This document shows positions 89-35,292 of a DNA stretch of 35,292 bases, piece by piece (positions within the stretch are counted from its first letter, which is position 1; every line of letters begins with the position of its first letter). A model generated the notes under the pieces. It did no database searches, was not told the DNA's origin, and saw only the letters and a list, made by a program, of their open reading frames with translations. This DNA is from a virus. The translations under genes and the position numbers were made by a program. The DNA is taken from the IMG/VR virus record IMGVR_UViG_3300021960_000009, positions 1 to 35,292 of that record; one strand, 5' to 3'.

Positions 89-703
89 ATGGCTACAGGC
101 GATACCGATATTAAAATATGTTCTGATGCATTATTGATGCTAGGAGCTAATCCTATATCCTCTTTTACAGAAGGCACAGATAGTGCAAACATTTGTGATC
201 GATTATATCCTGATGTCAAAAATCAAGCATTGGCCAGTTATCACTGGTCTTTTTCGTTTAAAAAGGTACAGCTCGCTAGATTAGTGACAACACCTGTAAC
301 GGAATACAAATACGAATATCAACTTCCTAGTGATATGATTGGTGTACCACATGCATTATACGATGCAGATGAGATTGGTGCTCCACGTCGAAAAGAATAT
401 CGAGTCATGGGAGATAAAATTTTAACAGATTACGAAAAAGTATATATTGATTATCAATACTCTGTACCAGAATATGCAATGCCATCATATTTTGTACAAT
501 TGATGAAGTATATTTTAGTATGGCATTTAGCTTTACCTATAACAGATCAATTAGAAAAATCAGATTATTGGAGACAAATTGCAGTAGGGACTCCAAGCGA
601 AAATGGTCGTGGTGGTTTTATGAGACGTGCCATGAGCATTGACGGACAAGGACAACCTGTAAACGCAATACAAGACTTCCCACTTATTGATGTGAGGTAT
701 TAA
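89..703 (+). CDS. Tail tubular protein A (T7 gp11-like adaptor)
   Basis: The 204-residue product resembles T7-type tail tubular protein A, the ring that joins portal to nozzle. It starts with the common helical opening around ICSDALLMLGANPI and has the Trp-rich YHWSF stretch at about residues 65-70, followed by the beta-rich mid-part YEYQLPSDMIGV. I chose ATG at 89 because AAAGGAAAG lies just upstream. The open frame extends further 5' only through the hairpin at 41-64 and gives no phage-like residues. The stop overlaps the ATG of tail tubular protein B, so the two are translationally coupled. It follows the capsid genes across the circular junction, as expected for this family. Confidence 0.85.
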   Translation: MATGDTDIKICSDALLMLGANPISSFTEGTDSANICDRLYPDVKNQALASYHWSFSFKKVQLARLVTTPVTEYKYEYQLPSDMIGVPHALYDADEIGAPRRKEYRVMGDKILTDYEKVYIDYQYSVPEYAMPSYFVQLMKYILVWHLALPITDQLEKSDYWRQIAVGTPSENGRGGFMRRAMSIDGQGQPVNAIQDFPLIDVRY

Positions 704-2670
704 TGGCTCGTTTTGTAAACATACAAACTAACTTTACTACAGGTGAGTTAGATCCACTTCTTAGATCACGTGTTGATTTACAAGCATATAATAATGCATT
801 AGAAACAGCAACGAATGTCATTTGTCAACCACAAGGTGGTGTAACACGCAGACCAGGAACAAAGTTTATTAATGAATTAGGCGGCAGCCCTGAGAATGGC
901 GTGCGTCTTGTACACTTTGAGTTTTCAGTAGATGACAGCTATATGCTATGTTTTACAAACAATCGCATGTATGTTTACAAGAATAAAGCACTCATTACTA
1001 ACATCAATGGCTCAGGTAATGATTATTTAGTGACAACTATACCAAGTGCCAGATTATCTAGCTTATGTTGGACACAATCTGCTGATACATTAATTGTTGT
1101 ACATGAAGATGCTAATCCAATTAAAATTGTTCGTGGTGCAAGTGATTCAACATGGACTATTTCTAACCTTACTTTTGATTCTATACCACAATATGCTTTC
1201 ACAATTACAACAACAAATCCAGCGGCGACGCTTACGCCGTCAGATGTATCAGGCAAGATCACGCTGACCGCATCGGCGGGAGTCTTTAGCGCAGCAAGTG
1301 TCGGACAATACATCAATGCTAGCCCACAAGGTCGAGCAAGAATAGTTAAATATGTAAGCTCTACAGTTGTGAATGCAGTGACTGAATTTCCATTCTTTGA
1401 CACTACAGCAACTGCATCAGGTCAATGGGAGCTTGAAACAGGATATGAAGACGTTTGGTCAGTATCCAGAGGATGGCCACGATCTGTCACATTCCATCAA
1501 GGCAGACTATTCTTTGGTGGTAGTAAATCAAGACCATCCACTATATGGGGATCTAAAGTAGGATTGTATTTTGATTTTGAACCAGTAGAAGGATTAGATG
1601 ATGACGCTGTTGAAGCTACTCTCGATACTAATACTTTTAACGCTATCGTTGACATTATTTCTGGTCGTGATCTGCAAGTGTTTACGACGGGTGGTGAATT
1701 CTATGTTCCGCAAGAAGGACTAACACCAATTACACCAACAGACTTTTTCTTATCATCTACATCACGTAATGGCATTAAAGAAGGTGTACGTGTAAAACAA
1801 TTAGAATCAGGACTATTATTTATACAACGCCAAGGTAAACAACTATCTGAGATTGCATACTCTGATACACAATTAACTTATATTACATCCAAGATCTCAT
1901 TATTATCTGGACATTTATTAAAAGGTCCAAAACATATGGACATACGTCGTGCAGTGGCTACAGATGAAAATGACTTATTATTAATCGTTAATGAAGATGA
2001 TGGCACAATGGCTGTGTTTTCATTATTAAGAACACAAAATGTTATTGCACCATCAGAGTTTGCAACTAAAGGATCATTCTTAGATGTGGGTGTAGACATT
2101 ACAGATATTTATACAGTTGCTAAGCGTGATGATAATGGCACAGATAAATATTATGTTGAAGTATTTGATGATGCTGCACTGACAGATAGTGCTGTTATTG
2201 GTACTAATAATGTTAGTTTAGACGCATCACATATTGATGGACAAACAGTACATGTAATATCAGATGGTTTAGTAGAATTAGATCAAACTGCAGATAGTGC
2301 TGTTACATTTACTAATACACCGACAACATCATGTGAAGTTGGTTTGCCAATTGACATTGAAGTCACTACTGTTCCTATTGACGTTAAAACTCCAGGTGGC
2401 ACTCGTATTGGATTTAAGAAACGTATTGTAGAGGTAAATGCATTATTGTATGAAACACAAAACATTGTAATTAATGGAAATTTAGTCCCAATACGTACTT
2501 TAGGTACTGGAGCATTAAACTCCCCAGTGCCTAATTTTACTGGAACTAAAGTATTAAATGGTATCTTAGGGTATAATGATGATGGAAAGATTACAGTAAC
2601 CCAATCTGCTCCATTAAAATTTACATTACTAGGGTTAGAATATAAAGTATCAGTTTATCAGGGAAGGTAA
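703..2670 (+). CDS. Tail tubular protein B (T7 gp12-like nozzle)
   Basis: This 655-residue protein has the hallmark opening of T7-like nozzle proteins, with TGELDPLLRSRVDLQAYNNA near residues 12-31 and a GGVTRRPGTKF stretch near 45-55. Later come GWPRSVTFHQGRLFFGGS and a beta-propeller-like body. It forms the tail tip below the adaptor ring. GAGGT sits just ahead of the ATG, which overlaps the previous stop. Bases of about 1218-1305 are clearly more GC-rich than the rest and encode a short TLTPSDVSGKITLTASAGVF segment, perhaps an inserted Ig-like piece. Function is assigned with good confidence from these motifs and from gene order. Confidence 0.88.
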   Translation: MARFVNIQTNFTTGELDPLLRSRVDLQAYNNALETATNVICQPQGGVTRRPGTKFINELGGSPENGVRLVHFEFSVDDSYMLCFTNNRMYVYKNKALITNINGSGNDYLVTTIPSARLSSLCWTQSADTLIVVHEDANPIKIVRGASDSTWTISNLTFDSIPQYAFTITTTNPAATLTPSDVSGKITLTASAGVFSAASVGQYINASPQGRARIVKYVSSTVVNAVTEFPFFDTTATASGQWELETGYEDVWSVSRGWPRSVTFHQGRLFFGGSKSRPSTIWGSKVGLYFDFEPVEGLDDDAVEATLDTNTFNAIVDIISGRDLQVFTTGGEFYVPQEGLTPITPTDFFLSSTSRNGIKEGVRVKQLESGLLFIQRQGKQLSEIAYSDTQLTYITSKISLLSGHLLKGPKHMDIRRAVATDENDLLLIVNEDDGTMAVFSLLRTQNVIAPSEFATKGSFLDVGVDITDIYTVAKRDDNGTDKYYVEVFDDAALTDSAVIGTNNVSLDASHIDGQTVHVISDGLVELDQTADSAVTFTNTPTTSCEVGLPIDIEVTTVPIDVKTPGGTRIGFKKRIVEVNALLYETQNIVINGNLVPIRTLGTGALNSPVPNFTGTKVLNGILGYNDDGKITVTQSAPLKFTLLGLEYKVSVYQGR

Positions 2671-2673
2671 TTT

Positions 2674-3303
2674 ATGGAACAAGTCATAGCTGCATATGCC
2701 GTTGCTAAACCATATTTAGCTGCAGCATCTATGGTTAGCAGTGTTGTACAAGGAGTTAATGCTTATAACCAGGGCAGGTATCAATCTGCAATGGCAGACT
2801 TAAAAGGCAAACAAGTAAAAGCAGATTCAGAATTAAAGCAATTACAAGCCAGACAAAAAGCAAATGCAACACTACTTAAAGTGATTGATAAGAATAGTAC
2901 TGTTGTTGCTAATGCTGCTGCAGGCAATATTGATCCTACAACAGGTAGTGCACGTAAATTACAAGAAGTCAATGAAATGTATGCAGGCCGTGATTTAAGA
3001 AATTTACAACTTTTACAAGACTCATACAAAACTTATGGGAATGTAATGGCTGATATTATGGATGCTACATCTGATCAATACGAACAACAAGGTGTAGTAG
3101 GTTTTTTATCAGGTGTAGGTCAAGCTGCATTTATTGGATTAAAATATGCTCCAGGCATGATGGATTCAGCAGTAGCTGATCAAGGTGGATTTGTTCCTGG
3201 ATTTGATGCAGCTGAAGAACAGTTTGCAATGATGGCTGGTAATGAATCGATTGGACCAAGCTTTACACCAGTAAAAGATTTTGGTGGATTTGGTGGATAT
3301 TAA
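2674..3303 (+). CDS. Internal virion protein (T7 gp14-like)
   Basis: A 209-residue protein, rich in Ala, Gln and Lys, placed directly after the nozzle gene where T7-like phages encode internal virion protein gp14. An N-terminal helical hydrophobic stretch (YAVAKPYLAAASMVSSVVQGV) is followed by a long helix with KQLQARQKANATLLKV and then NAAAGNIDPTTGSARKL, a pattern common in these ejection proteins. The C-terminus is Gly/Phe-rich. It is probably ejected and helps form the channel through the outer membrane. GGAAGG lies ahead of its ATG. The family call rests mainly on position, size and composition. Confidence 0.7.
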   Translation: MEQVIAAYAVAKPYLAAASMVSSVVQGVNAYNQGRYQSAMADLKGKQVKADSELKQLQARQKANATLLKVIDKNSTVVANAAAGNIDPTTGSARKLQEVNEMYAGRDLRNLQLLQDSYKTYGNVMADIMDATSDQYEQQGVVGFLSGVGQAAFIGLKYAPGMMDSAVADQGGFVPGFDAAEEQFAMMAGNESIGPSFTPVKDFGGFGGY

Positions 3304-3316
3304 CTAAGGATAAAGA

Positions 3317-5602
3317 ATGGCAGAACTACCTAAGTATCAACGTACACAAGTATTAACAGAAATGGCTCCAGCTGCTGAGCCAGCTAATTTAACGGCTGGC
3401 GTTAAAACATTCAATGTCATGAATAAAGCACTGGATCAGTTATCTCAGTATGCTTTAGAAGGTGCTGAGCGTTATGCTAAAGAATCTGCTATTGAATTTA
3501 ATTTAGATAACCCAGTTACTACAGAGCAATACAAAGAAGCTGTACAAACAGGTAAAGACCCAGTTAAGCAATTTAGAACTGGAGGTATGATCTATAACGA
3601 TACAATCCGTAAACTTTATGCTAGCCAAGCTGCTACAGGCTTAGTTGCTGATACTCAAGAGCACTATGAAAATGTATTAAGGCAAGTTCAGCGTGGTGAA
3701 ATAAAAGATCCAAATGAAATCAAAAGAACACTAACAGATCCAATCAACGGATATGCTGAAGTTATCCAGCGTATGGATCCTGCAACTGCCGCAACATTTA
3801 GATCACGTAGTAATTATTATGGACATACTTATTACAGAAGGGCTATGAGTGAACTCAATACCCTAAATGAATTTGAAACACAGCAAACAGTAGATAAGTT
3901 TAATGATGGATTACTTAAAACATGGACAGAAGGTTTAAAAACATCATCTACTCCAGACGATATTAAAGAGCTTAAAGATATTATATTAGCTGATGCAACA
4001 GAAACTTATCGTAATACAGGTAAGTTTGACATTAATATGAATGCATTAAAATCAAAGCTAAACTCAATTGAACAAGATTCTCTTGCTGTTGAAATTGCTA
4101 AAGAAGCATATAGAGAAAATAAACCATTAGACGTTTTAATGCAAGAAATGACAATTGACATGAAAGCTGGTCGCATGACTGCTATTTATGCTGATAAATT
4201 TGCAGATGAGCAAGCGGATATTAGAGCTAAAGTTAAAACACAATATAACAATTTAGATACGAATGCTAAAGTAAGTAGCACCTCAATTAACAAGTCCTTA
4301 ACTAATATAGACAATAGATTAAAAAAAGGTGAGTTAGTTGATTTTAGCGAATATGATACAAAGATGTTAAGTGCAGATGCTGATCAATTAGCCAAGTATG
4401 ATATGCTAATAGAGAAGCAAAAGATTAATGCACAATACAAAGGCATGAATTTTAACCAGCTCGAACAAGACATTATTGATGCTGAAAAAAACAAGCCTAT
4501 TGTAATGACTGAAGAAGAATCAGAGCTCTATAATCATAAGCTAGCTGTACGTGATTTAATTCAAAAACAAGTTGATGAAGATCCTATTGCCTATGCATTA
4601 CAGCATCCAGCATATCAATCTGTAAAATCATCATTATTATACGATCCAGCTCGTGCATCTGAACCTGGGTACTTAGCTGAGTTTCAGCAACAATTTGAAG
4701 ATAGAGCAGCCTTAAGAGAGAAGTTTGCATTAGACTTTAAAAAACCCAATGTATCATTATTTTCTAAACAAGAAGTTGCCTATTATAAGAACATGTTTGA
4801 TCAGGCTAGCGCAACTGACATGGTAAACATTGTGACTAATTTAACAGATGCATATGGTGGGAATGACTATGAATTATTTAAAGAGTTAGCTAAAGATTCA
4901 GATGCTGCTCGATATGCACATCTAGGTAATTTGGTAGTATCAACACAAAGTGTCCCATCTGATGTGAGAGATATGACAACTATTGAAAAATTAGCAGACG
5001 GTATTCAGATTGCTCGTAACGATGAAGTGGTTAAATTGTATAAATTTGATAACACAGAAATGAATCAAGAAGTCGGTAATGTGTTAGGAGAAGCATACGA
5101 AGATCAAGCACGCCAAGTTGTTGTGTCATCTGCTAAACATATTTACTATTCATTGAATAAACAACGCCCAGAGGAATGGAATAATACCTTATGGAAAGAT
5201 GCATTAAACATGGCTACTGGCAAAAATGGAGATTATGGAGGTATTGTAAATTACAGAGGATCAATGCATCCAATTCCACCAAACGTTAATAGAAACTTAT
5301 TTGGTGATATGTTAGAAGATGCAACGATTGATGATTTAAGAATGGTAGCTGAAGATGCAGCTGGCAATCCATTGCAATCATTAGCTGGTGAAGATGGCGT
5401 TGAATATACATTAGAGCAAATACAACGAGCAGATATTGATTTTATCAGTAGAGATAGTGCTGTATTAGCTGGTAAAAAACTGGTATCTTTTATGGACAAA
5501 GTGTCTGTACCTTTTGCATCACAAGATAACCGTCCTATTGCTATTAACTTTGCAGGATTATATTCTATACTCAAACAACGTTACCCAGCTAAGTATAAAT
5601 AA
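3317..5602 (+). CDS. Internal virion protein (T7 gp15-like)
   Basis: A 761-residue, mainly helical protein with no membrane segment, following the gp14-like gene. Size, position and composition fit T7 gp15, the second component of the inner core that is ejected with the DNA. The N-terminal part has the usual Q-R-T-x-V-L-T-E-M-A-P opening and a tetratricopeptide-like helical body rich in Glu, Asp, Lys and Ala. AAGGATAA lies ahead of the ATG. The stop overlaps the next ATG (TAATG). I see no enzyme motif. Confidence 0.75.
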   Translation: MAELPKYQRTQVLTEMAPAAEPANLTAGVKTFNVMNKALDQLSQYALEGAERYAKESAIEFNLDNPVTTEQYKEAVQTGKDPVKQFRTGGMIYNDTIRKLYASQAATGLVADTQEHYENVLRQVQRGEIKDPNEIKRTLTDPINGYAEVIQRMDPATAATFRSRSNYYGHTYYRRAMSELNTLNEFETQQTVDKFNDGLLKTWTEGLKTSSTPDDIKELKDIILADATETYRNTGKFDINMNALKSKLNSIEQDSLAVEIAKEAYRENKPLDVLMQEMTIDMKAGRMTAIYADKFADEQADIRAKVKTQYNNLDTNAKVSSTSINKSLTNIDNRLKKGELVDFSEYDTKMLSADADQLAKYDMLIEKQKINAQYKGMNFNQLEQDIIDAEKNKPIVMTEEESELYNHKLAVRDLIQKQVDEDPIAYALQHPAYQSVKSSLLYDPARASEPGYLAEFQQQFEDRAALREKFALDFKKPNVSLFSKQEVAYYKNMFDQASATDMVNIVTNLTDAYGGNDYELFKELAKDSDAARYAHLGNLVVSTQSVPSDVRDMTTIEKLADGIQIARNDEVVKLYKFDNTEMNQEVGNVLGEAYEDQARQVVVSSAKHIYYSLNKQRPEEWNNTLWKDALNMATGKNGDYGGIVNYRGSMHPIPPNVNRNLFGDMLEDATIDDLRMVAEDAAGNPLQSLAGEDGVEYTLEQIQRADIDFISRDSAVLAGKKLVSFMDKVSVPFASQDNRPIAINFAGLYSILKQRYPAKYK

Positions 5603-8034
5603 TGACTAGATTTATCAACAAAAATATTCCTAATGATACAACAGGATCTATTACGTATTCCCCAGGAGAAGTATCTTGGGGTGAGCGTATTGATGCTATT
5701 TCGGATGATATGTTCTATCTTAATGGTCGCATGGACGCTAAGTCTAATACGTATCGTAAAGTTTGGGATCCAATTATTAATGAGATTAAACAAAAGACTA
5801 ATCAGGATTTTGAGAATCCAGGTGCTGCGTTTGATCTAAATATTGATACATCGTTTCAAGGATTAGAAGCACCAGACTTTGATGAATTTACAATGTTACC
5901 TAAATTAAATGATCAAGTCCAAGTAAACAAACAAGATATATATAGCAAGAAAGTATTAGAGATACAGGATTTTATTGCTAATAACCGTGAAGCATTTGAT
6001 GAAGGCTCAGATGTACTTAACGTAGATGAAACTTATGTATATGGTAAGGTGCGTGAGTTTGTTAATCAAATACAAGATCGATCAGAGTATGTTAGCCAAC
6101 GTACTGAAGGCTATACTGATATGGCTGTTAATCTTGCTGGTGGTGTACATGGTAGCTTTACAGACCCAGCCAACCTTGTTGCTGTGGGTGCATCAGCTAG
6201 CGTTACAGCAATGTCTGGAGCTGGTGTATTAACTAGCATTCTTATTGATACAATTGCTGGTACTGGCGCAGAATGGGTTATACAGAAAGATATACAAAAA
6301 TGGTATGCAGAGCTAGGATTAGAATACACTGAAGAACAGTTTAGAGATAACATTATTGCAGCAGCAGTAACATCAGCAGCTTTAGGTGGCGCAGCAGAAA
6401 CTGCATTTAGATTGCCTGGTATGACTAAAACACAAATAGCTAAAGGTATTGAACTGTTTGAAAAGTTTAATGCTAAGAAAGCTGGATTAGAATACAAGCC
6501 CAATAAAGAAGTAGACGCAATTTTGCAGAACGATGAAGTACAAGCAACATTAAATAAAAAGAATGTTATTCAAAATGATGTAGGTAATATTGAGCACAAT
6601 GTTAATATTAATACAGCAACTGAAGCAATTATTAACAACAAGTATGATGATCTACCTAAGACTCCACCAGAGCGACTAAAAGACTTTGATGCTTTAATTC
6701 ATGATGAAGCGTTTAACAAGACTGAGATGTTTGATCCAGACGAATTAAATATTGATGCTAAACGTTTCCAGTTTAAAACAGGTGGTGATGAGTTTGGTAT
6801 GCTGGATACACTAAAAGGTGTAGAGAAATGGGAACCACTCAAGTCTAATATTGCATTAGTCTTTGAAGATACCAATGGTAAGTTGTTTATTGCAGATGGC
6901 CATCAGCGAGTAAACCTAGCTAAGCGATTAAAGAAGCAAGGCCAAAAACCTACCATTGTTGCTTATCGAGTTAAAGAAGCAGATGGCTTTACTCCACAAT
7001 TAACTAGAGCTATTGCGGCACGTAAGAATATAGCTGAAGGTAGTGCTGATCCATTTGATGCAGCTAGAGCATTACAGATTGATCCTAATGCATTACAAAA
7101 CCTACCACCACAATCAGCGATGGCTAGATATGCTAATGGTTTATCACAATTAGATCAAAGTATATTTAGATTAGCAGAGAACAGTGATGTGCCATCATCG
7201 TATTCTGCAATGATTGGTCAATATATTACTGGAGCACAAGAACAATTATCTGTACTTAAACTACTAGAACGCACTAAGCCAGGTAATATGGTACAAGCTG
7301 AAAGCATCATACAGCAAGCTAAAATGGCTGGCTTTGAGAAGGTTAAAGCAAGTCAAGCTGGATTGTTTGGTGATGATGATATTGTTCAAAATCTATTTAA
7401 AGAGCGTGCAGATATATTAGATGCCACGATTAAACTTATTAACAATGAACGACGTGTATTTGGTACACTCGTTGAAAACTCTAACTTTATTGAGAAGTAT
7501 GGTAATAAACTCGATAAGCTAGGTAATGCAGAAAGGAGAGCATTAAATGCGGAAATCATCGAAACGATCAAAACGAATGCAAACACAGCAGGAAACATCT
7601 CAAGTAACCTCACAACCATCGCAAGAGAATACGCCAGAAAAGATATTACCCTCAGCGACGCAGCCAGACGGTTCTCAGAAAATGTCGGCTCAGGATTTAG
7701 AACTGGCGAATTCACTAGGTTACCAACTAGCCCAGCTAGGATCACTGATGACATTGAGGAGGTTGTTGGCGAATTCAACCAATCAAGCCAAATACGACAA
7801 GAAGGCTTAGAAAAGTATGACGATGTTAAGCAAATTACAAATGACATTGATGCAATAGAGCAAAATACTCAAGGCTTATTTGATGACTTGGCTGAAGTGG
7901 ATGAGCGTATTAAAACAGAGAAAATCTTTGAATCACCGCAGGGTGATGGATCAACAACGACTAGGACGTTTGATGAAATGCTAGAAGACAACAAGCGTGA
8001 TAAAGATATTATAGATGAATTGAGGAACTGCTAA
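5602..8034 (+). CDS. Large internal virion protein, first half of a gp16-like region, with a ParB-like segment
   Basis: An 810-residue protein in the position of the large T7 ejection protein gp16. Residues of about 170-230 are Gly/Ala-rich and hydrophobic. Residues of about 390-475 hold a ParB-like segment, with LVFEDTNGKLFIADGHQRV, then NLAKRL and IVAYRVKEADG, resembling the D-G-H-x-R core of ParB/Srx-type folds. I do not see the lysozyme-like site of T7 gp16. The ORF ends at TAATG, so the next 829-residue protein is coupled to it and may supply the rest of a gp16-like activity. Codon use between about 7545 and 7800 shifts to C-ending codons, where a second reading frame with its own ribosome binding site overlaps. 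Confidence 0.7.
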   Translation: MTRFINKNIPNDTTGSITYSPGEVSWGERIDAISDDMFYLNGRMDAKSNTYRKVWDPIINEIKQKTNQDFENPGAAFDLNIDTSFQGLEAPDFDEFTMLPKLNDQVQVNKQDIYSKKVLEIQDFIANNREAFDEGSDVLNVDETYVYGKVREFVNQIQDRSEYVSQRTEGYTDMAVNLAGGVHGSFTDPANLVAVGASASVTAMSGAGVLTSILIDTIAGTGAEWVIQKDIQKWYAELGLEYTEEQFRDNIIAAAVTSAALGGAAETAFRLPGMTKTQIAKGIELFEKFNAKKAGLEYKPNKEVDAILQNDEVQATLNKKNVIQNDVGNIEHNVNINTATEAIINNKYDDLPKTPPERLKDFDALIHDEAFNKTEMFDPDELNIDAKRFQFKTGGDEFGMLDTLKGVEKWEPLKSNIALVFEDTNGKLFIADGHQRVNLAKRLKKQGQKPTIVAYRVKEADGFTPQLTRAIAARKNIAEGSADPFDAARALQIDPNALQNLPPQSAMARYANGLSQLDQSIFRLAENSDVPSSYSAMIGQYITGAQEQLSVLKLLERTKPGNMVQAESIIQQAKMAGFEKVKASQAGLFGDDDIVQNLFKERADILDATIKLINNERRVFGTLVENSNFIEKYGNKLDKLGNAERRALNAEIIETIKTNANTAGNISSNLTTIAREYARKDITLSDAARRFSENVGSGFRTGEFTRLPTSPARITDDIEEVVGEFNQSSQIRQEGLEKYDDVKQITNDIDAIEQNTQGLFDDLAEVDERIKTEKIFESPQGDGSTTTRTFDEMLEDNKRDKDIIDELRNC
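7547..7810 (+). CDS. Candidate overlapping gene, out of frame inside the internal virion gene
   Basis: An 87-residue frame starts at ATG 7547 after AAAGGAGAG with about eight bases of spacing, a far better ribosome binding site than most genes here have. It lies wholly inside the 5602-8034 gene in the +1 frame. The product has a basic N-terminus (MRKSSKRSKRMQ), a Gln/Ser/Thr-rich linker and a helical C-terminus with QDLELANSLGYQLAQLGSLM. In this stretch the main frame uses unusual codons (ATC, AAC, CTC, ACC, TTC), while the inner frame uses codons closer to the phage norm. I do not recognise the family. It may be a real overprinted gene or a chance frame. Confidence 0.45.
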   Translation: MRKSSKRSKRMQTQQETSQVTSQPSQENTPEKILPSATQPDGSQKMSAQDLELANSLGYQLAQLGSLMTLRRLLANSTNQAKYDKKA

Positions 8035-10523
8035 TGATGCACTCCAGGAAATGTATTACAAGTAATACACGGATGAATGATGCTGAAAAGAATGATGCGT
8101 TAGATTTATTCAATCAGTATGAAAGACAATTTGGTGATGAGTTAAAATCTGCAGAAGCTACATTTAATGCATTAGAATACAAAGCTAATATTAGACGTAA
8201 AGACAGAATATTAGAAGCTCAAAGATTTGCGAGTATGGTGTCTCGTATTGAACGTTTTGCTGAAGAAGGTAATCGATATGGACATGCGTTATTAAACATT
8301 GTTTCTTCTGATGCACAAGGACGTATGTTGAACTTTAACTTAGAAGATCGAGCTACTTATTATCGTAATGATATTTTAAGTCACATGGGTGATTTAATAC
8401 TAAAGTTTGGTAAGAAAGGTATGCTTGGCTTACGTGGTGATGGCATCCAGGGACTAAAAGGCAACAAGAATGCATATGCTGATCTATTAAAAGAAGCAGA
8501 AGCCATATCACTAGGTAAGGGCCCAGCAACTAATAATCAACAAATGAGATCATTTGCTCAAGGATGGCTAGATGGAGCTGAAAGAGCACGCTATTTAAAG
8601 AATAAGTTTGGTGGCAACGTACCTAAGATGGAAGGTTGGTTTATTCCTCAGTCACACTCTGGACAAAAAGTATCATCTGTACCTCGAGACGAATGGAAAC
8701 AATTTGTATTACAAAGAATAGATCGATCACAAATGGTTGATTATGATACAGGGGCTGCAGTAACAGATCTTAAATTAGAAGTATTGCTGAATGATGTTTA
8801 TGATGCAATCTCTAAAAGCGGATATGTTGGCACAGCGAAGAAGCAATATAACAAAACATTAGAACGTCATCGTATCTTAAAGTTCAAAGATGCTAAGTCA
8901 TGGATTGAATACAGTGAGATGTTTGGTGATGGTGATGTATTTAAAACGATGGTTGATTATGCAGATAAGATGAGCCGTGATATTTCTGAGCTAGAAATAC
9001 TTGGCCCAAGACCACAACAAACTTTAGACAAACTTACATCTTATGTGCAAGATAAAGCAGCTAAAGATCCTTCTATAGATGTTTCAGGATTGCCTAAACT
9101 GCAAGATTACTACAATGTATTTAAACGTAAACAGTTGTTAGTCGATAAAGAATGGTTAGCTGATGTAGGTAGTTCCGTCCGTAACGTATTGACATCTGCA
9201 TTCTTAGGGAAAGCTGTACTGTCTGCTGTATCTGACTCAGCTACATCGATTACGACAATGAAGCGTCTAGGTAAAGCAGGCACTGGGCCACTGCTTCGAT
9301 GGCTTGGTCAAGTCACTGACACTGTGCTATCCGCATCTAACAGTGCAGAGCGTAAGAAGTTTTTGATTAGAGCTGGTATTGTAATGGATGATGCGATTAA
9401 TATTGCACATGCAGCTGGTAGGTTTGCTGGCGAAACTGATGGACCTATTTGGTCACAAGTATTAGCTGATGTCACAATGAGAGCACAAGGCTTAACAGCA
9501 TGGACACAATCAATGCGTAATGCGAATGCATTAGAAATGATGTCAGCCGTAGCAGATAACTTATCTAAGAACTTTGATGAACTTGATCCTGAGTTTCAGA
9601 TCACTTTAAGAAGATATGAGTTAGATAAAGACTGGGATATATTAAGACAAGCTACACCATCTGATTACAAAGGTGTACCAATGTTAACTAAGAATAACAT
9701 CTTAGATCTAAATACTTCAGCTGTGGATACAGATGTGTTAGCAGCAAACTATGGATCTATGTTGATTAACTTAATTAATGATGCTGTGATTATTGGCAAC
9801 ATTAAAGCATCAGCCAACTTAGTCGGTGCTAAGCCACGTGGATCATTATCTGGTGAATTGTTTAGAAGTGCATTTATGTTTAAGACATTCCCAGTGACTG
9901 TATTCATGCAGCATCTATATCGTATGGCAACTGAGCAAGGAATTAACAGTAAGATACTAGGTATGAATGTACCAGTCAAAGCAGCTAAAGCATATCGTAT
10001 TGCTAACTTTGTTGCGTTAACTACAATGTTTGGTGCACTAGCAGAACAACTGCACCAGTTAGCAAAAGGTAAAGATTTTGCAGATATGACAGATCCTGGA
10101 TTTTGGGGAGCTGCGTTAACACGTGGTGGTGGTCTAGGTTTTGTGGGTGACGTATTGAATGAACAAATGATGGGATATAAAACAGAATTGTTTGGACCAT
10201 TATCTTCATTTACTAGAGATACTTATGGACTAACGATAGGTAATATATATGATTATGCAACTGGTGAAGATCCTAAATTTGCAGATGATCTGTTAAGATA
10301 CCTCAAACAATATACACCAGGCAATTCATTATGGTATGCAGAGCTTGCATTAGATCGATTAATACTAGAGCAAACAGCTGAGATTATGGATCCAGGCGTA
10401 TCTAATAGACTACGTACCAGCGCAAGAAGACAAGAGTCTAGGAATAAACAGCGATATTTCTGGTCCCCTGGCAAGACTTCACCAACTCGTGGGCCAAGAT
10501 TAGGTGCAGCTTTAGGAGAATAA
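8034..10523 (+). CDS. Large internal virion protein, second half of a gp16-like region
   Basis: An 829-residue protein coupled to the previous gene by TAATG. The early part is helical (ERQFGDELKSAEATFNALEY). The C-terminal third carries SAFMFKTFPVTVFMQHLYRM and a hydrophobic FVALTTMFGALAEQL, a pattern found at the ends of large podoviral ejection proteins that form a channel in the inner membrane. The end is basic with SPGKTSPTRGPRLGAALGE. Together with the 810-residue protein it would match a single long ejection protein in related phages. The frames differ by one base, so this is either a natural split or a frameshift. The clean restart codon favours a natural split. Confidence 0.72.
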   Translation: MMHSRKCITSNTRMNDAEKNDALDLFNQYERQFGDELKSAEATFNALEYKANIRRKDRILEAQRFASMVSRIERFAEEGNRYGHALLNIVSSDAQGRMLNFNLEDRATYYRNDILSHMGDLILKFGKKGMLGLRGDGIQGLKGNKNAYADLLKEAEAISLGKGPATNNQQMRSFAQGWLDGAERARYLKNKFGGNVPKMEGWFIPQSHSGQKVSSVPRDEWKQFVLQRIDRSQMVDYDTGAAVTDLKLEVLLNDVYDAISKSGYVGTAKKQYNKTLERHRILKFKDAKSWIEYSEMFGDGDVFKTMVDYADKMSRDISELEILGPRPQQTLDKLTSYVQDKAAKDPSIDVSGLPKLQDYYNVFKRKQLLVDKEWLADVGSSVRNVLTSAFLGKAVLSAVSDSATSITTMKRLGKAGTGPLLRWLGQVTDTVLSASNSAERKKFLIRAGIVMDDAINIAHAAGRFAGETDGPIWSQVLADVTMRAQGLTAWTQSMRNANALEMMSAVADNLSKNFDELDPEFQITLRRYELDKDWDILRQATPSDYKGVPMLTKNNILDLNTSAVDTDVLAANYGSMLINLINDAVIIGNIKASANLVGAKPRGSLSGELFRSAFMFKTFPVTVFMQHLYRMATEQGINSKILGMNVPVKAAKAYRIANFVALTTMFGALAEQLHQLAKGKDFADMTDPGFWGAALTRGGGLGFVGDVLNEQMMGYKTELFGPLSSFTRDTYGLTIGNIYDYATGEDPKFADDLLRYLKQYTPGNSLWYAELALDRLILEQTAEIMDPGVSNRLRTSARRQESRNKQRYFWSPGKTSPTRGPRLGAALGE

Positions 10524-10572: not shown

Positions 10573-13293
10573 ATGGCAATCGATATATCAAGCACAACGA
10601 GACGTATTGTTTACACTGGATCAGCTGGTGTAGGCCCTTACGCATTTAACTTTGAAGTCTTAGCACAGACTGACCTTGCTGTATATTTTAACAATACAGA
10701 ACTGACGCTCACTACAGACTATACTGTTTCTATTTCTGGAGACGGTACAGGTTCTGTGACTATCGTTGTTGGTACTAATGTTCCCTCTACGCCTACTGCT
10801 TCTGATCGCATCACTATTGTAGGTGATCGTACAATACAAAGAACAACAGACTTCACCACAGGTGGTCCTCTATTTGCGACATCACTCAACGATGAGTTTG
10901 ACAGTCAAACAATCTTTGTACAACAAGTATTAGAACAATCTGATCGTTCATTACGTGCGCCTAACACAGATCCTACGACTGTAAATATGGTGTTACCTAT
11001 TAATACAGTTAGAGCAAACAAAACATTAGCCTTTGATGCTAACGGTGATCCAGTCATTGGTGAACAGATTGGTGATTATCGTGGTAACTGGGCAGCAAGT
11101 ACAGCATATAATAAGCGTGACTTAGTTAAAGATACAAGCAATAACAATGTTTACTTATGTGTTGTTGCTCATACGTCTTCTGGATCACAACCTATATCTT
11201 CTAATGCAGACTCAGCTAAATGGGATTTAATTGTAGATTCAGCATCAGCCAGTGGATTTGCAGACGAAGCTGAAGCATGGGCTAAAAAGACAGATGGTAT
11301 TGTAGAGTCAACAGAGTATTCTTCTAAAGCATGGTCTATTGGTGGCACAGGTGTAACCAATACAGCAAGCCGTGGTGCTGCTAAAGAATGGGCAACCAAA
11401 GCTGAAGATTCTACAGTAGATGGTACTGAATACTCAGCTAAACATTACAGTGCAAAAGCATCTGCTAGTGCATCTGCTGCATCAAGCAGTGCAAGTTCAG
11501 CAAGTACATCAGCAAGTAATGCATCAACCTCTGCAAGCAATGCATCCACTTCTGCGACTAATGCTTCTAATAGTGCAACGGCAGCTGCATCTTCTGCGAG
11601 CAGTGCTGCATCATCACAAGCAGCGGCTGAAGCAGTTTTTGATAACTTTGATGATGCATACTTAGGAGCTAAAGCAAGCGATCCTACATTGGATAATGAT
11701 GGTGATGCATTAGCTGACGGTGCGTTATACTTTGATACAACTAATAATGTTATGAAAGTATACGATTTAGGAACTACAACATGGTATCAATTAACGCCTA
11801 CAGTAGTTAATCAAAATAACATTAATACTGTAGCTGGCATATCAGCAGATGTTACAACCGTTGCTGGCATATCAGCAAATGTTACAACTGTTGCTGGTAT
11901 AGATTCAGATGTAACAGCAGTAGCAGCAGATGCAACAGACATTGGTACAGTAGCAACGAATATTGCTAACGTGAATGCAACAGGTACTAACATCGCAAAT
12001 GTAAATACAACTGCAACCAATATAGCAAATGTAAATACTGTAGCTGGGATATCTGCTAATGTAACTACGGTAGCTGGAGACAGTGCAGATATTCAAACAG
12101 TGGCAAGTAATACAGCAAACATTTCCACAGTAGCTGGTATCAGTGCTAACGTAACCACAGTTGCTGGCATATCTAGCGATGTAACTACAGTAGCTACTAA
12201 TGTAAGTGATGTGGTAACATTTGCAACCACATACCTAGGAGCATCAGCATCCGCTCCAAGCACATCGACTACTGGTGCATTGTATTACAATACATCTACA
12301 AATCAATTATACGTATGGGATGGATCTGCATGGGATGAAGCAGCATTTAATGCAACAGGTGCAGTAACTTCATTTAATACAAGAACAGGTGCAGTCACAT
12401 TATCTGCTGCTGATGTTAATACAGCTCTAGGATCTGATGCAGTATTAGACTCAGACATAGGATCAACAGTACAAGCTTATGATGCAACGATACTGAAGTC
12501 AGCCGATATTGGTACAACAGTACAAGGTTATGATGCAGACACAGCTAAATATGATGATGTAACAGCTAACTTCACTGGCACTCTTCAAAACGGTGGTAGC
12601 AATGTTGTAGTTGATACAGACATTGGTTCTACTGTACAGGCTTATGATGCAGATACTGCAAAGTATGATGACACAACTGCAAACTTTACAGGTACTTTAC
12701 AAAATGGTGGAAGCAATGTTGTTGTAGATACAGACATTAATTCAACAGTATTGGGATATGTAGCACCAGGAACATCAGGTAATATATTAACATCTAATGG
12801 AACATCGTGGACAAGCGCAGCACCAGCTGCTTCAGGTGGTTTTGATTCTGGCACATTAATGTTATTCCAACAAACAGCTGCTCCAACAGGATGGACAAAA
12901 CAAACAACTCATAACGACAAGGCTTTGAGAGTTGTATCAGGAACAGCAAGTTCAGGAGGAACAGTAGCATTTGCAACAGCATTTGCATCTAAAACTCCAA
13001 CAGGTTCTGTTAGTATTACGAGTGTGACAGGTAGTGCTGGAGCAACAACTTTGACTACCCCACAAATACCAAGCCACTCTCATAGTTATACCCGTACGTA
13101 TGGTGGTGAGTTTACTCCTGGACCAGCTCCATTTCACGGCAGATTCCAAGATACTCCTAATACTGGAGCAGCTGGTGGTGGTGGATCACACACACATCCA
13201 TTTAGTTTTTCAAGTGGTAGTGGTACATTTAGTGGCGATGCCATTGATCTTGCTGTACAATATGTAGATCTTATTATTGCATCAAAAGATTGA
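10573..13293 (+). CDS. Tail fibre / receptor-binding protein with T7 gp17-like N-terminus
   Basis: A 906-residue modular fibre. Residues 1-150 match the T7 fibre attachment domain (RRIVYTGSAGVGPYAFNFEV, then TDFTTGG and SLNDEFDSQTIFVQQ). Residues of about 172-207 (GNWAASTAYNKRDLV, then VYLCVVAHTSSG) resemble a small carbohydrate-binding fold. Residues of about 290-350 are an Ala/Ser/Asn coiled coil, and residues 419-548 are thirteen ten-residue repeats. Next come two near-identical 38-residue repeats. The tip (APTGWTK, NDKALRV) carries HSHS and SHTHP, His-x-His pairs as in metal-binding collar-type tips. AAAGGATAA precedes the ATG. It sits alone after a 49-base gap and determines host attachment. 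Confidence 0.88.
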   Translation: MAIDISSTTRRIVYTGSAGVGPYAFNFEVLAQTDLAVYFNNTELTLTTDYTVSISGDGTGSVTIVVGTNVPSTPTASDRITIVGDRTIQRTTDFTTGGPLFATSLNDEFDSQTIFVQQVLEQSDRSLRAPNTDPTTVNMVLPINTVRANKTLAFDANGDPVIGEQIGDYRGNWAASTAYNKRDLVKDTSNNNVYLCVVAHTSSGSQPISSNADSAKWDLIVDSASASGFADEAEAWAKKTDGIVESTEYSSKAWSIGGTGVTNTASRGAAKEWATKAEDSTVDGTEYSAKHYSAKASASASAASSSASSASTSASNASTSASNASTSATNASNSATAAASSASSAASSQAAAEAVFDNFDDAYLGAKASDPTLDNDGDALADGALYFDTTNNVMKVYDLGTTTWYQLTPTVVNQNNINTVAGISADVTTVAGISANVTTVAGIDSDVTAVAADATDIGTVATNIANVNATGTNIANVNTTATNIANVNTVAGISANVTTVAGDSADIQTVASNTANISTVAGISANVTTVAGISSDVTTVATNVSDVVTFATTYLGASASAPSTSTTGALYYNTSTNQLYVWDGSAWDEAAFNATGAVTSFNTRTGAVTLSAADVNTALGSDAVLDSDIGSTVQAYDATILKSADIGTTVQGYDADTAKYDDVTANFTGTLQNGGSNVVVDTDIGSTVQAYDADTAKYDDTTANFTGTLQNGGSNVVVDTDINSTVLGYVAPGTSGNILTSNGTSWTSAAPAASGGFDSGTLMLFQQTAAPTGWTKQTTHNDKALRVVSGTASSGGTVAFATAFASKTPTGSVSITSVTGSAGATTLTTPQIPSHSHSYTRTYGGEFTPGPAPFHGRFQDTPNTGAAGGGGSHTHPFSFSSGSGTFSGDAIDLAVQYVDLIIASKD
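11827..12216 (+). repeat. Thirteen tandem 30-bp units coding a decapeptide repeat
   Basis: Thirteen consecutive ten-residue units fit the pattern TVAGISANVT, with variants such as TVATNIANVN and TVASNTANIS. The DNA copies differ mostly at third bases and a few real substitutions. The regular period suggests a beta-solenoid or triple-stranded fibre shaft, with Val, Ala and Ile pointing inward. Confidence 0.9.
12505..12744 (+). repeat. Two 114-bp (38-codon) fibre repeats plus a partial third
   Basis: Copies begin at 12505 and 12619, with a short third start at 12733. At protein level they are nearly the same (TVQAYDADTAKYDD, TANFTGTLQNGGSNVVVDTD). The DNA has drifted at many synonymous sites, so the protein repeat is kept by selection rather than by recent duplication. 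Confidence 0.85.
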
Positions 13294-13904: not shown

Positions 13905-14453
13905 ATGAATGCAGTATTTGATAGCAACAATTATCTGATTGTTGATAAATTTATTAGCTTAGAAGAAGCAGAGAGTTTATATAAAGAGTTTGTAGTATTG
14001 CCGAATGTAGATCCTGGGATAAGAGATTTTCAATGCCCATTATCTCATGCGTATTATAATCACAAACCTTTTTTAGTATTATTAAATTATAAGGTAGCAA
14101 TGCTATCTGATCTTTTAAATGAAAAATTATTACCGACTTACTGTTTTGCAAGAGTATACAATCATGGTGAAGAATTAAAGAAACACTCTGATCGACCATC
14201 TTGTGAAATTAGCGTAACATTAAATTTAGGTGGTGATGCTGATTGGGAGATTTATATTACCAAACCTGATGGTGAGTCAGTGGGGGTAAATTTAAAACCT
14301 GGTCAAGCAATGGTATATAAAGGTACAGTAGCAGAACACTGGCGTAATAAGTTTACTGGCAATAAATACGCTCAAGTATTTTTACATTACATTAGAGCGT
14401 ATGGTGAACACGCAGAACATTATTATGACAGAATTGCAACTAGACGTTCTTGA
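13905..14453 (+). CDS. 2-oxoglutarate/Fe(II) oxygenase-like protein
   Basis: A 182-residue double-stranded beta-helix type protein. The iron ligands appear as His94-Ser-Asp96 (LKKHSDRPSCEIS) and His145 (AEHWRN), with a following basic residue and FLHYIRA near 159-165. The N-terminus NYLIVDKFISLEEAESLYKEF is typical of phage oxygenases of this class. Such enzymes hydroxylate proteins, nucleobases or small molecules. The substrate is unknown. It lies between fibre and lysis genes and is followed at once by a second oxygenase of a different subtype, which suggests joint action on one target or on virion or host surface proteins. Confidence 0.78.
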   Translation: MNAVFDSNNYLIVDKFISLEEAESLYKEFVVLPNVDPGIRDFQCPLSHAYYNHKPFLVLLNYKVAMLSDLLNEKLLPTYCFARVYNHGEELKKHSDRPSCEISVTLNLGGDADWEIYITKPDGESVGVNLKPGQAMVYKGTVAEHWRNKFTGNKYAQVFLHYIRAYGEHAEHYYDRIATRRS

Positions 14454-14994
14454 TACTTACATTGTAGTACTAAAAAATATAGTTCCAAAAGAGTTATGCC
14501 AAACTATATTAGATGAGTATAGCAATACTGATGAATGGATTAGTGCTGGCACAGGTTCAGGTGTACGCAAAGAAGCAAGAGCCTGTGATACGATAGAAAT
14601 ATCACAGTTGTATACTATGAATAACAATGCTAATCGATTAAAAATTGACAATGATTTGTTTGAATGTATGGCTAAGTGTATTGCTGAATACAATGGCAAG
14701 TTTCCACATTCAAGAATAGCAGAAGATACTGGATACGAATTATTACGATACAAAAAAGGTGAGTTTTACATACAACATGTAGATTCATTTTTACAAGCAC
14801 CGAGATTAGTGACAGCATCAGTTCATTTAAATGATGACTATGAAGGTGGGGAGTTTACATTTTTTGATAGACGTTTAAAATATAGATTGAATACAGGAGA
14901 TGTGCTAATGTTCCCATCAACATTTATGTATCCGCATGAAGTGATGCCTGTTACATCTGGAACTAGATATTCAATAGTTACATGGTTTAGATAG
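14425..14994 (+). CDS. Prolyl-4-hydroxylase-type 2OG/Fe(II) oxygenase
   Basis: A 189-residue product when started at ATG 14425; an in-frame ATG at 14401 is also possible and neither has a clear Shine-Dalgarno. It has a full facial triad, His118-Val-Asp120 (FYIQHVDSF), His171 (MYPHEVMPV) and the 2OG-binding Arg181 (GTRYSIVTWF), plus GGEFTFFDRR and TGDVLMFPS typical of P4H/PKHD-type hydroxylases. It overlaps the upstream oxygenase in another frame, so the two are coupled. The likely role is hydroxylation of a protein side chain, and the target is unknown. Confidence 0.85.
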   Translation: MTELQLDVLDTYIVVLKNIVPKELCQTILDEYSNTDEWISAGTGSGVRKEARACDTIEISQLYTMNNNANRLKIDNDLFECMAKCIAEYNGKFPHSRIAEDTGYELLRYKKGEFYIQHVDSFLQAPRLVTASVHLNDDYEGGEFTFFDRRLKYRLNTGDVLMFPSTFMYPHEVMPVTSGTRYSIVTWFR

Positions 14995-29933: not shown

Positions 29934-30530
29934 ATGAAGTGGCTTTACCTCCTATTAATTTGTATAATGCTCCAAGGAGTAACAATGGCAGATAATGCAA
30001 AATTAGATCCAAAACGGATGGAAAAGGTTTATTCTTTTATCCAGAAGAATCTTGGATTAAATAAAGAACAATGGGATCTTTACAGAGAAAGTGTAGCTAG
30101 TATTGAGTCTGGCGGCAAATATATGATTCAAGGTGGATCAGGTAATGCATATGATGGTCGTTATCAATTAGGCAAGAATGCTAAAATTGATGGAGCTAAG
30201 TTTTATCAAGCACAAGATCCTGGACATACAGCAGAAAATAGAAAAGCATTTATTAATGATCCAGCATTACAAGAAGAAATGTTTGCTGGATATACAGTGG
30301 CTAATAATCATTACATGACTAATATGGATTATGCTAAAAAAGATACTTATATGAACGCAGATCCATTCCGTAAATTACAATATTTAAGCTATGGGCATAA
30401 CCAAGGTCATGGTGCTGTTAAAAAGTTTATGGAAACTGGTATTGTGACTAAAGATGGATTTGGAACTAAAGGTACAAAATATATGAGAACATTAGAAAAC
30501 ATGAAAAGTAAAGAGGGGATAGAGTTCTAA
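29934..30530 (+). CDS. Exported lysozyme-like glycan hydrolase, with second internal start
   Basis: A 198-residue protein. Residues 1-19 form a textbook Sec signal (MKW, then LYLLLICIML and QGVTMA before the cut). The core (YRESVASIESGGKYM, then GNAYDGRYQLGKNAKIDG) matches the catalytic Glu and the Gly-rich beta turn of lysozyme/transglycosylase folds, with LSYGHNQGHGAVKKFM later. A second ATG at 29985 gives a leaderless enzyme and has AAGGAG five bases upstream, better than the first start. The two forms may both be made. It is the likely endolysin to go with the 3TM holin, or a virion-associated lysozyme. Confidence 0.82.
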   Translation: MKWLYLLLICIMLQGVTMADNAKLDPKRMEKVYSFIQKNLGLNKEQWDLYRESVASIESGGKYMIQGGSGNAYDGRYQLGKNAKIDGAKFYQAQDPGHTAENRKAFINDPALQEEMFAGYTVANNHYMTNMDYAKKDTYMNADPFRKLQYLSYGHNQGHGAVKKFMETGIVTKDGFGTKGTKYMRTLENMKSKEGIEF

Positions 30531-34952: not shown

Positions 34953-35234
34953 ATGGCTTATAATAAAGACAATTTACAACCTATTGGTGGTCAAGCCAAA
35001 GCTGGTAATGCTCCACAGATGTGGTCATATACCGCTCCTGGAACTGACACACTTGCTGACATTAATACAGCTGGTTATTTCAATGACGCACACTCAGTAT
35101 TAAAAGTGGGCGACTTAGTATACTTATGGGACTCATCTGTTCCTACAGCATCTTTAGTCGTTGTACTTTCTAATGCTTCTGGTGTTGTTGACGTATCAGA
35201 TGGTACAGCATTATCAGTCGCAGACGCTGACTAA
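34953..35234 (+). CDS. Small head protein after the capsid gene
   Basis: A 93-residue beta-rich protein (MWSYTAPGTDTLADINTAGY, then LKVGDLVYLWDSS and TASLVVVLSNASGVVDVSD). AAGGAG lies ahead of the ATG, 11 bases after the capsid stop. Small proteins of this type follow the capsid gene in many marine podoviruses and may decorate or cement the shell. The last codons lie in the terminal repeat. Confidence 0.75.
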   Translation: MAYNKDNLQPIGGQAKAGNAPQMWSYTAPGTDTLADINTAGYFNDAHSVLKVGDLVYLWDSSVPTASLVVVLSNASGVVDVSDGTALSVADAD

Positions 35235-35292
35235 GTTGTTTATCGCAGATCAGGTAGGTGCTTCGGTGCCTACCTATTTGCACATTTAAAGG
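35212..35292. repeat. Terminal direct repeat, copy 2 (identical to 1-81)
   Basis: Right-end copy of the 81-base repeat. It includes the stop of the small head gene and the UUCG-loop hairpin at 35252-35275. See copy 1 for interpretation. Confidence 0.95.
35252..35275 (+). terminator. UUCG-loop hairpin after the capsid genes (copy 2)
   Basis: The same stem as at 41-64, eighteen bases after the stop of the small head gene. Here its place at the 3' end of the capsid unit is clear, which supports a terminator or message-stabilising role. Confidence 0.6.

Follow-up and report, generated by a model that had tools for sequence, protein, structure and literature searches.

A conserved gene probably overprinted within an internal-virion-block gene of T7-like phages

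The window, i.e., the whole stretch of DNA analysed (IMGVR_UViG_3300021960_000009, 35,292 bases), carries T7-like portal, scaffold and capsid genes and belongs to a marine T7-like phage. An 81-base direct terminal repeat (1–81 and 35212–35292) and a contig crossing the junction (L008) make the record look like a complete, circularly assembled genome. The gene order is tail tubular A, tail tubular B, gp14-like, gp15-like, outer gene, gp16-like and fibre, where the outer gene (5602–8034, 810 amino acids) and all features mapped within it below lie on the plus strand, as does the gp16-like virion structural gene directly downstream (8034–10523, phrog_684). The outer gene was called an internal virion gene in the initial annotation, which is fair by position, since it stands in the T7-like internal-virion block immediately upstream of the gp16-like gene. 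However, the name is unproven, because the outer product finds its only match in a PHROG whose function is unknown (phrog_10691) and contains a ParB/Noc-like domain. This domain (6727–7326), which contains a DGHQR motif, was modelled by AF2 with pLDDT above 80 across most of its length, and Foldseek returned Noc/ParB as the top matches (probability 1.00, E 3e-3). VIA-align against ParB/Noc gave Z of 7–9.6, with one alignment at 8.4 and an rmsd of 2.7 over 91 residues. The domain is thus predicted to adopt the N-terminal CTPase-type ParB/Noc-like fold, and in the model it is followed by helices and then by a disordered stretch.

Wholly inside the outer gene, in the +1 frame relative to it, lies a second open reading frame of 87 codons (7547–7810) with its own ATG start and TAG stop. 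It is preceded by the Shine–Dalgarno sequence AAAGGAGAG (7532–7540), the GGAG core of which ends 8 nt 5′ of the ATG. Both the enclosed frame and its well-spaced ribosome-binding sequence had been claimed by the initial annotation and are borne out. A TAA stop in the inner frame, read from the sequence, directly abuts the ATG (7544–7546), so that the whole inner protein could be made only via internal initiation. The inner gene would accordingly be translated from its own Shine–Dalgarno sequence and ATG, presumably on the same late mRNA as the outer gene.

To examine the conservation of this arrangement, IMG/VR was scanned with a profile of the outer domain and two sets were taken, i.e., the best 80 of 536 and the best 80 of 517 confirmed relatives; removal of duplicates from both sets left 103 distinct viral outer sequences. 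Among the matches listed, an ORF of the inner family was found in 102 of these 103 relatives, always in the +1 frame, although the outer proteins are in some cases as little as about 33% identical. The +1 frame is open across the span in all 59 non-redundant sequences (window included), the +2 frame in none, and the best antisense frame in 29%; an antisense ORF of 153 codons (7386–7847) was rejected as a gene on this last count. The inner start is ATG at 55 of the 59 loci and TTG at one, while three have no ATG, GTG or TTG near the expected position. A Shine–Dalgarno match of at least 4 nt stands upstream of the inner start in 55 of 56 tested relatives (98%), versus 11.7% of 2542 control ATGs. 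The check set by the initial annotation, namely a kept start and no inner stops in relatives, was thereby passed. The family consensus is MAKRSxSSKxxQTxK...LSExQLxxAISxGxQLAxLDALSMLRRK, and in the close relative L002 the inner protein is 92% identical to that of the window, with start and stop both kept.

Among cultured relatives, Dunaliella viridis virus SI2 encodes a clear, albeit divergent, inner homologue (65 bits) and Ruegeria phage 45A6 a short, weak one, both unannotated; the Roseobacter-phage branch (L009, L112) has only a weak, shortened version. In SI2 (L010), an unannotated, helical-looking 49-codon GTG ORF (7302–7451) also separates the outer-gene homologue from the gp16-like gene. 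A tblastn search of two inner proteins against phage records found no relative, and full-length searches of 28 genomes or records recognised no standalone copy, the matches there being the loci with the nested form plus one weak match in the record of L211. Comparison of 46 inner proteins with PHROGs, Pfam, NCBIfam, PADLOC and PDB yielded no family, only scattered weak matches each common to at most two members. A literature search, with few subscription papers within reach, found no report of the nested gene.

Constraint on the outer frame was analysed by a codon-sharing test in 15-codon bins over the 59 non-redundant sequences, in which the observed sharing of codons for identical outer amino acids is divided by the expected sharing. 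All six bins of the zone 7537–7806 gave ratios of 1.56–2.30, whereas every flanking bin (6727–7536 and 7807–8031) gave 1.01–1.20, and the edges of the zone coincide with the inner start and stop. The reduction in synonymous change that the initial annotation had asked to see in 7547–7810 is thus present. The same pattern recurs in a second viral set (52 sequences, partly from the same contigs), and, as a negative control, 32 homologues that carry the ParB/Noc-like domain without the nested gene show no rise of codon sharing in the same columns. Since these tests pair related sequences, neither the pair counts nor the combined probabilities are independent, and the argument is carried by the sharp edges and the negative control.

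A direct comparison with L002, whose outer gene aligns to that of the window without gaps, shows the same boundaries. Of the 87 codons in the overlap, 6 show synonymous changes, versus 183 of the 724 outside it (Fisher p=4e-5), whereas amino-acid changes are not reduced (4 of 87 inside vs. 25 of 724 outside). The last change before the overlap falls at codon 641, and dense change resumes at codon 737, immediately past the inner stop. Over outer residues 694–720, the least variable codon position is outer position 3, i.e., inner position 2, which is expected if the inner frame governs.

Codon usage points the same way only in part. As the initial annotation had claimed, the outer frame drifts within the span to codons that the phage avoids elsewhere (ATC, AAC, CTC, ACC and TTC), which make up 17 of its 87 codons there, compared with 28 of 722 over the remainder of the outer gene and 205 of 4960 in other genes. 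The accompanying statement that the inner frame looks normal holds for these avoided codons (2 of 87); however, the inner frame does not exceed the outer one in mean log codon frequency (−4.26 versus −4.13).

Could the synonymous constraint instead reflect an RNA or DNA element, e.g., a structure or a packaging or replication signal, rather than a protein? Such elements likewise suppress synonymous change, but the fold energy of 7520–7820 is like that of shuffled sequences (z −0.09), no Rfam family reaches its gathering score, and the constraint zone stops at the inner start and stop. Moreover, the +1 frame is always open and the inner amino acids are conserved while being encoded by differing codons, which makes this explanation highly improbable. 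Alternatively, ribosomes could slip by +1 from the outer frame into the inner one and so make a fusion protein, as might be suggested by the +1 relation of the two frames and by the many relatives in which the open inner frame extends some codons 5′ of the ATG. However, the TAA directly before the ATG rules out such entry from upstream in the window, and it recurs in L002, in which the stop-to-stop ORF of the inner frame begins with the ATG as its first codon; a stop stands there also in L044 and L070. The conserved Shine–Dalgarno sequence and ATG would in addition be needless, and frameshifting is scarcely credible here. A chance open frame, produced without any inner protein by local composition drift or by recombination from a higher-GC relative, draws on the local GC (0.45 in the overlap vs. 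0.36 in the rest of the outer gene) and on the mosaic genome, but it is already refuted by the frame being open in 59 of 59 sequences against a mean chance of 5% under synonymous resampling (0.4% of draws for the window itself), by the retained Shine–Dalgarno sequence and ATG, and by the sharp-edged constraint in two sequence sets that is missing from the negative control. A double compensating frameshift in the outer gene was also considered and discarded, because distant homologues can be aligned to the outer frame all the way across the span.

The locus thus combines a reading frame enclosed in another with its own start and stop, conservation of that frame, and an outer synonymous constraint limited to the overlap, as found for overprinted nested genes. 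A nested gene is strongly supported by the comparative sequence evidence, i.e., the conserved start, Shine–Dalgarno sequence, open frame and inner amino acids together with the outer synonymous constraint. Because the same hidden, unannotated ORF occurs in about a hundred related phages, dual coding of 7547–7810 appears close to certain, and the span very probably holds a genuine protein-coding gene that was overprinted, in the +1 frame, on an older member of the T7-like internal-virion block.

In an 82-sequence tree of the outer domain (root not fixed), presence of the inner gene is strongly clustered, requiring 8 changes versus 27 when shuffled. It is missing from most outer homologues of Rhizobiales, the Caulobacter group and gut bacteria, and it was found at 12 of 50 loci in bacterial genomes. 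The simplest reading is that the outer frame is ancestral and that the inner gene was overprinted on it, having been gained long ago in phage lineages with some losses. In the methylotroph phage MEP301 (L216; OM43 host), the closest cultured phage, the portal, capsid, tail-tube (tail tubular B) and fibre (N-terminus) are 77–90% identical to those of the window. Despite this identity, MEP301 has neither the outer nor the inner gene, which suggests that the inner gene travels with a core module that can be exchanged. The core gene set of MEP301 differs from that of the window, as if the ejection-core module had been swapped.

The inner protein is predicted by AF2 to be disordered in its first half and then to form one helix. 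Residues 1–20 (7547–7606) constitute a conserved basic head, predicted disordered, with a family mean net charge of +4.7; residues 21–47 (7607–7687) form, according to the model and the family alignment, a variable linker rich in Ser, Thr, Gln, Asn and Pro; and residues 48–86 (7688–7804) form the C-terminal helix, with pLDDT of 92–98 over residues 51–80 and the conserved core L-S-[ED]-x-Q-L-x-x-A-I-S-x-G-x-Q-L-A-x-L-D-A-L-S-M-L-R-R-K. The basic head, Gln/Ser/Thr linker and helix described beforehand are thus recovered, but the amphipathic character then ascribed to the helix was not supported by a hydrophobic-moment test. The disordered stretch predicted in the outer protein (7729–7809, model residues 335–361, pLDDT under 50) carries most of this helix: inner residues 61–87 lie over it, whereas inner residues 1–50 lie over confident outer helices. 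One protein is therefore ordered mostly where the other is disordered, an arrangement that would relax the twofold constraint, in agreement with general reports that disorder relieves the constraint of overlaps (PMC8227390).

Based on its location, its constant linkage to the outer gene and its make-up of a basic head plus a helix, the inner product is tentatively proposed to serve the internal-virion (ejection) core module as a small accessory protein, a much weaker claim than that of coding. It may bind nucleic acid or large core proteins via the head and helix while the core assembles or DNA is ejected. Such a role would explain both the lack of copies outside the outer gene and the absence from MEP301, in which another module takes its place. 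The T7 proteins gp6.7 and gp7.3 are likewise small ejected virion proteins, basic or low-complexity, that accompany the ejection machinery, and the inner protein resembles them by description; unlike the inner gene, however, their genes are separate and non-nested. The ParB/Noc likeness belongs to the outer protein. The fullest version of this proposal, in which an old, near-universal and unannotated nested gene of a large environmental T7-like phage group encodes a new genome-ejection-core protein and the overlapping proteins divide order and disorder between them, is possible though rather doubtful.

Nearly as likely, though still improbable in itself, is that the nested gene is real but its product is directed at the host, in host takeover, anti-defence or regulation. 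According to a review mainly on eukaryotic viruses (PMC8227390), viral proteins that arose de novo and are small and disordered often target the host, and no family assigns the inner protein elsewhere. However, a late role on the structural side is favoured by the position in a late structural block and by the constant association with the outer gene. A lysis gene comparable to lambda Rz1 nested in Rz comes to mind because o-spanins of the Rz1 type are familiar cases of gene nesting in tailed phages (PMC6139136), in which, as here, a small gene of a tailed dsDNA phage is fully embedded in another frame of a larger one. Rz1, however, is a lipoprotein of the lysis cassette with a lipobox cysteine, whereas the inner gene lies in a virion-core block and neither the window protein nor the aligned relatives shown contain cysteine, so that there is no lipobox. 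The AF2 model shows one polar helix, no signal peptide is apparent, and the gene is nested in a ParB-like core-block gene rather than in an i-spanin gene beside endolysin (29934–30530) or holin, which leaves lysis very unlikely. PhiX174 gene E, nested in gene D (PMC8227390), is likewise a whole phage gene out of frame with its own start, but PhiX174 is a single-stranded DNA microvirus, E is a lysis protein, and it has no known sequence relation to the inner gene.

Out-of-frame nested genes are mostly missing from phage annotation, and 7547–7810 has unusually strong comparative support. Its host is a structural-region gene of widespread aquatic phages, and outer homologues without the inner gene provide a natural negative control. 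The inner gene would represent a testable new protein family and a clean case of one DNA stretch serving two proteins, and it warns that conserved nested genes escape the phage protein catalogues (PHROGs, Pfam, NCBIfam).

Several further observations concern the surrounding genome. L008 and L002 are 99.8–100% identical to the window in the tail tubular B and gp14-like genes and 86–90% identical in the next three genes, with a sharp mosaic boundary near 3303–3317 (703–3303 versus 3317–10523). The tail fibre gene (10573–13293) contains repeated segments at 11818–12750, seen as multiple offset matches to relatives, and behind it lies a 2OG-Fe(II) oxygenase-like gene (14401–14994, phrog_61).
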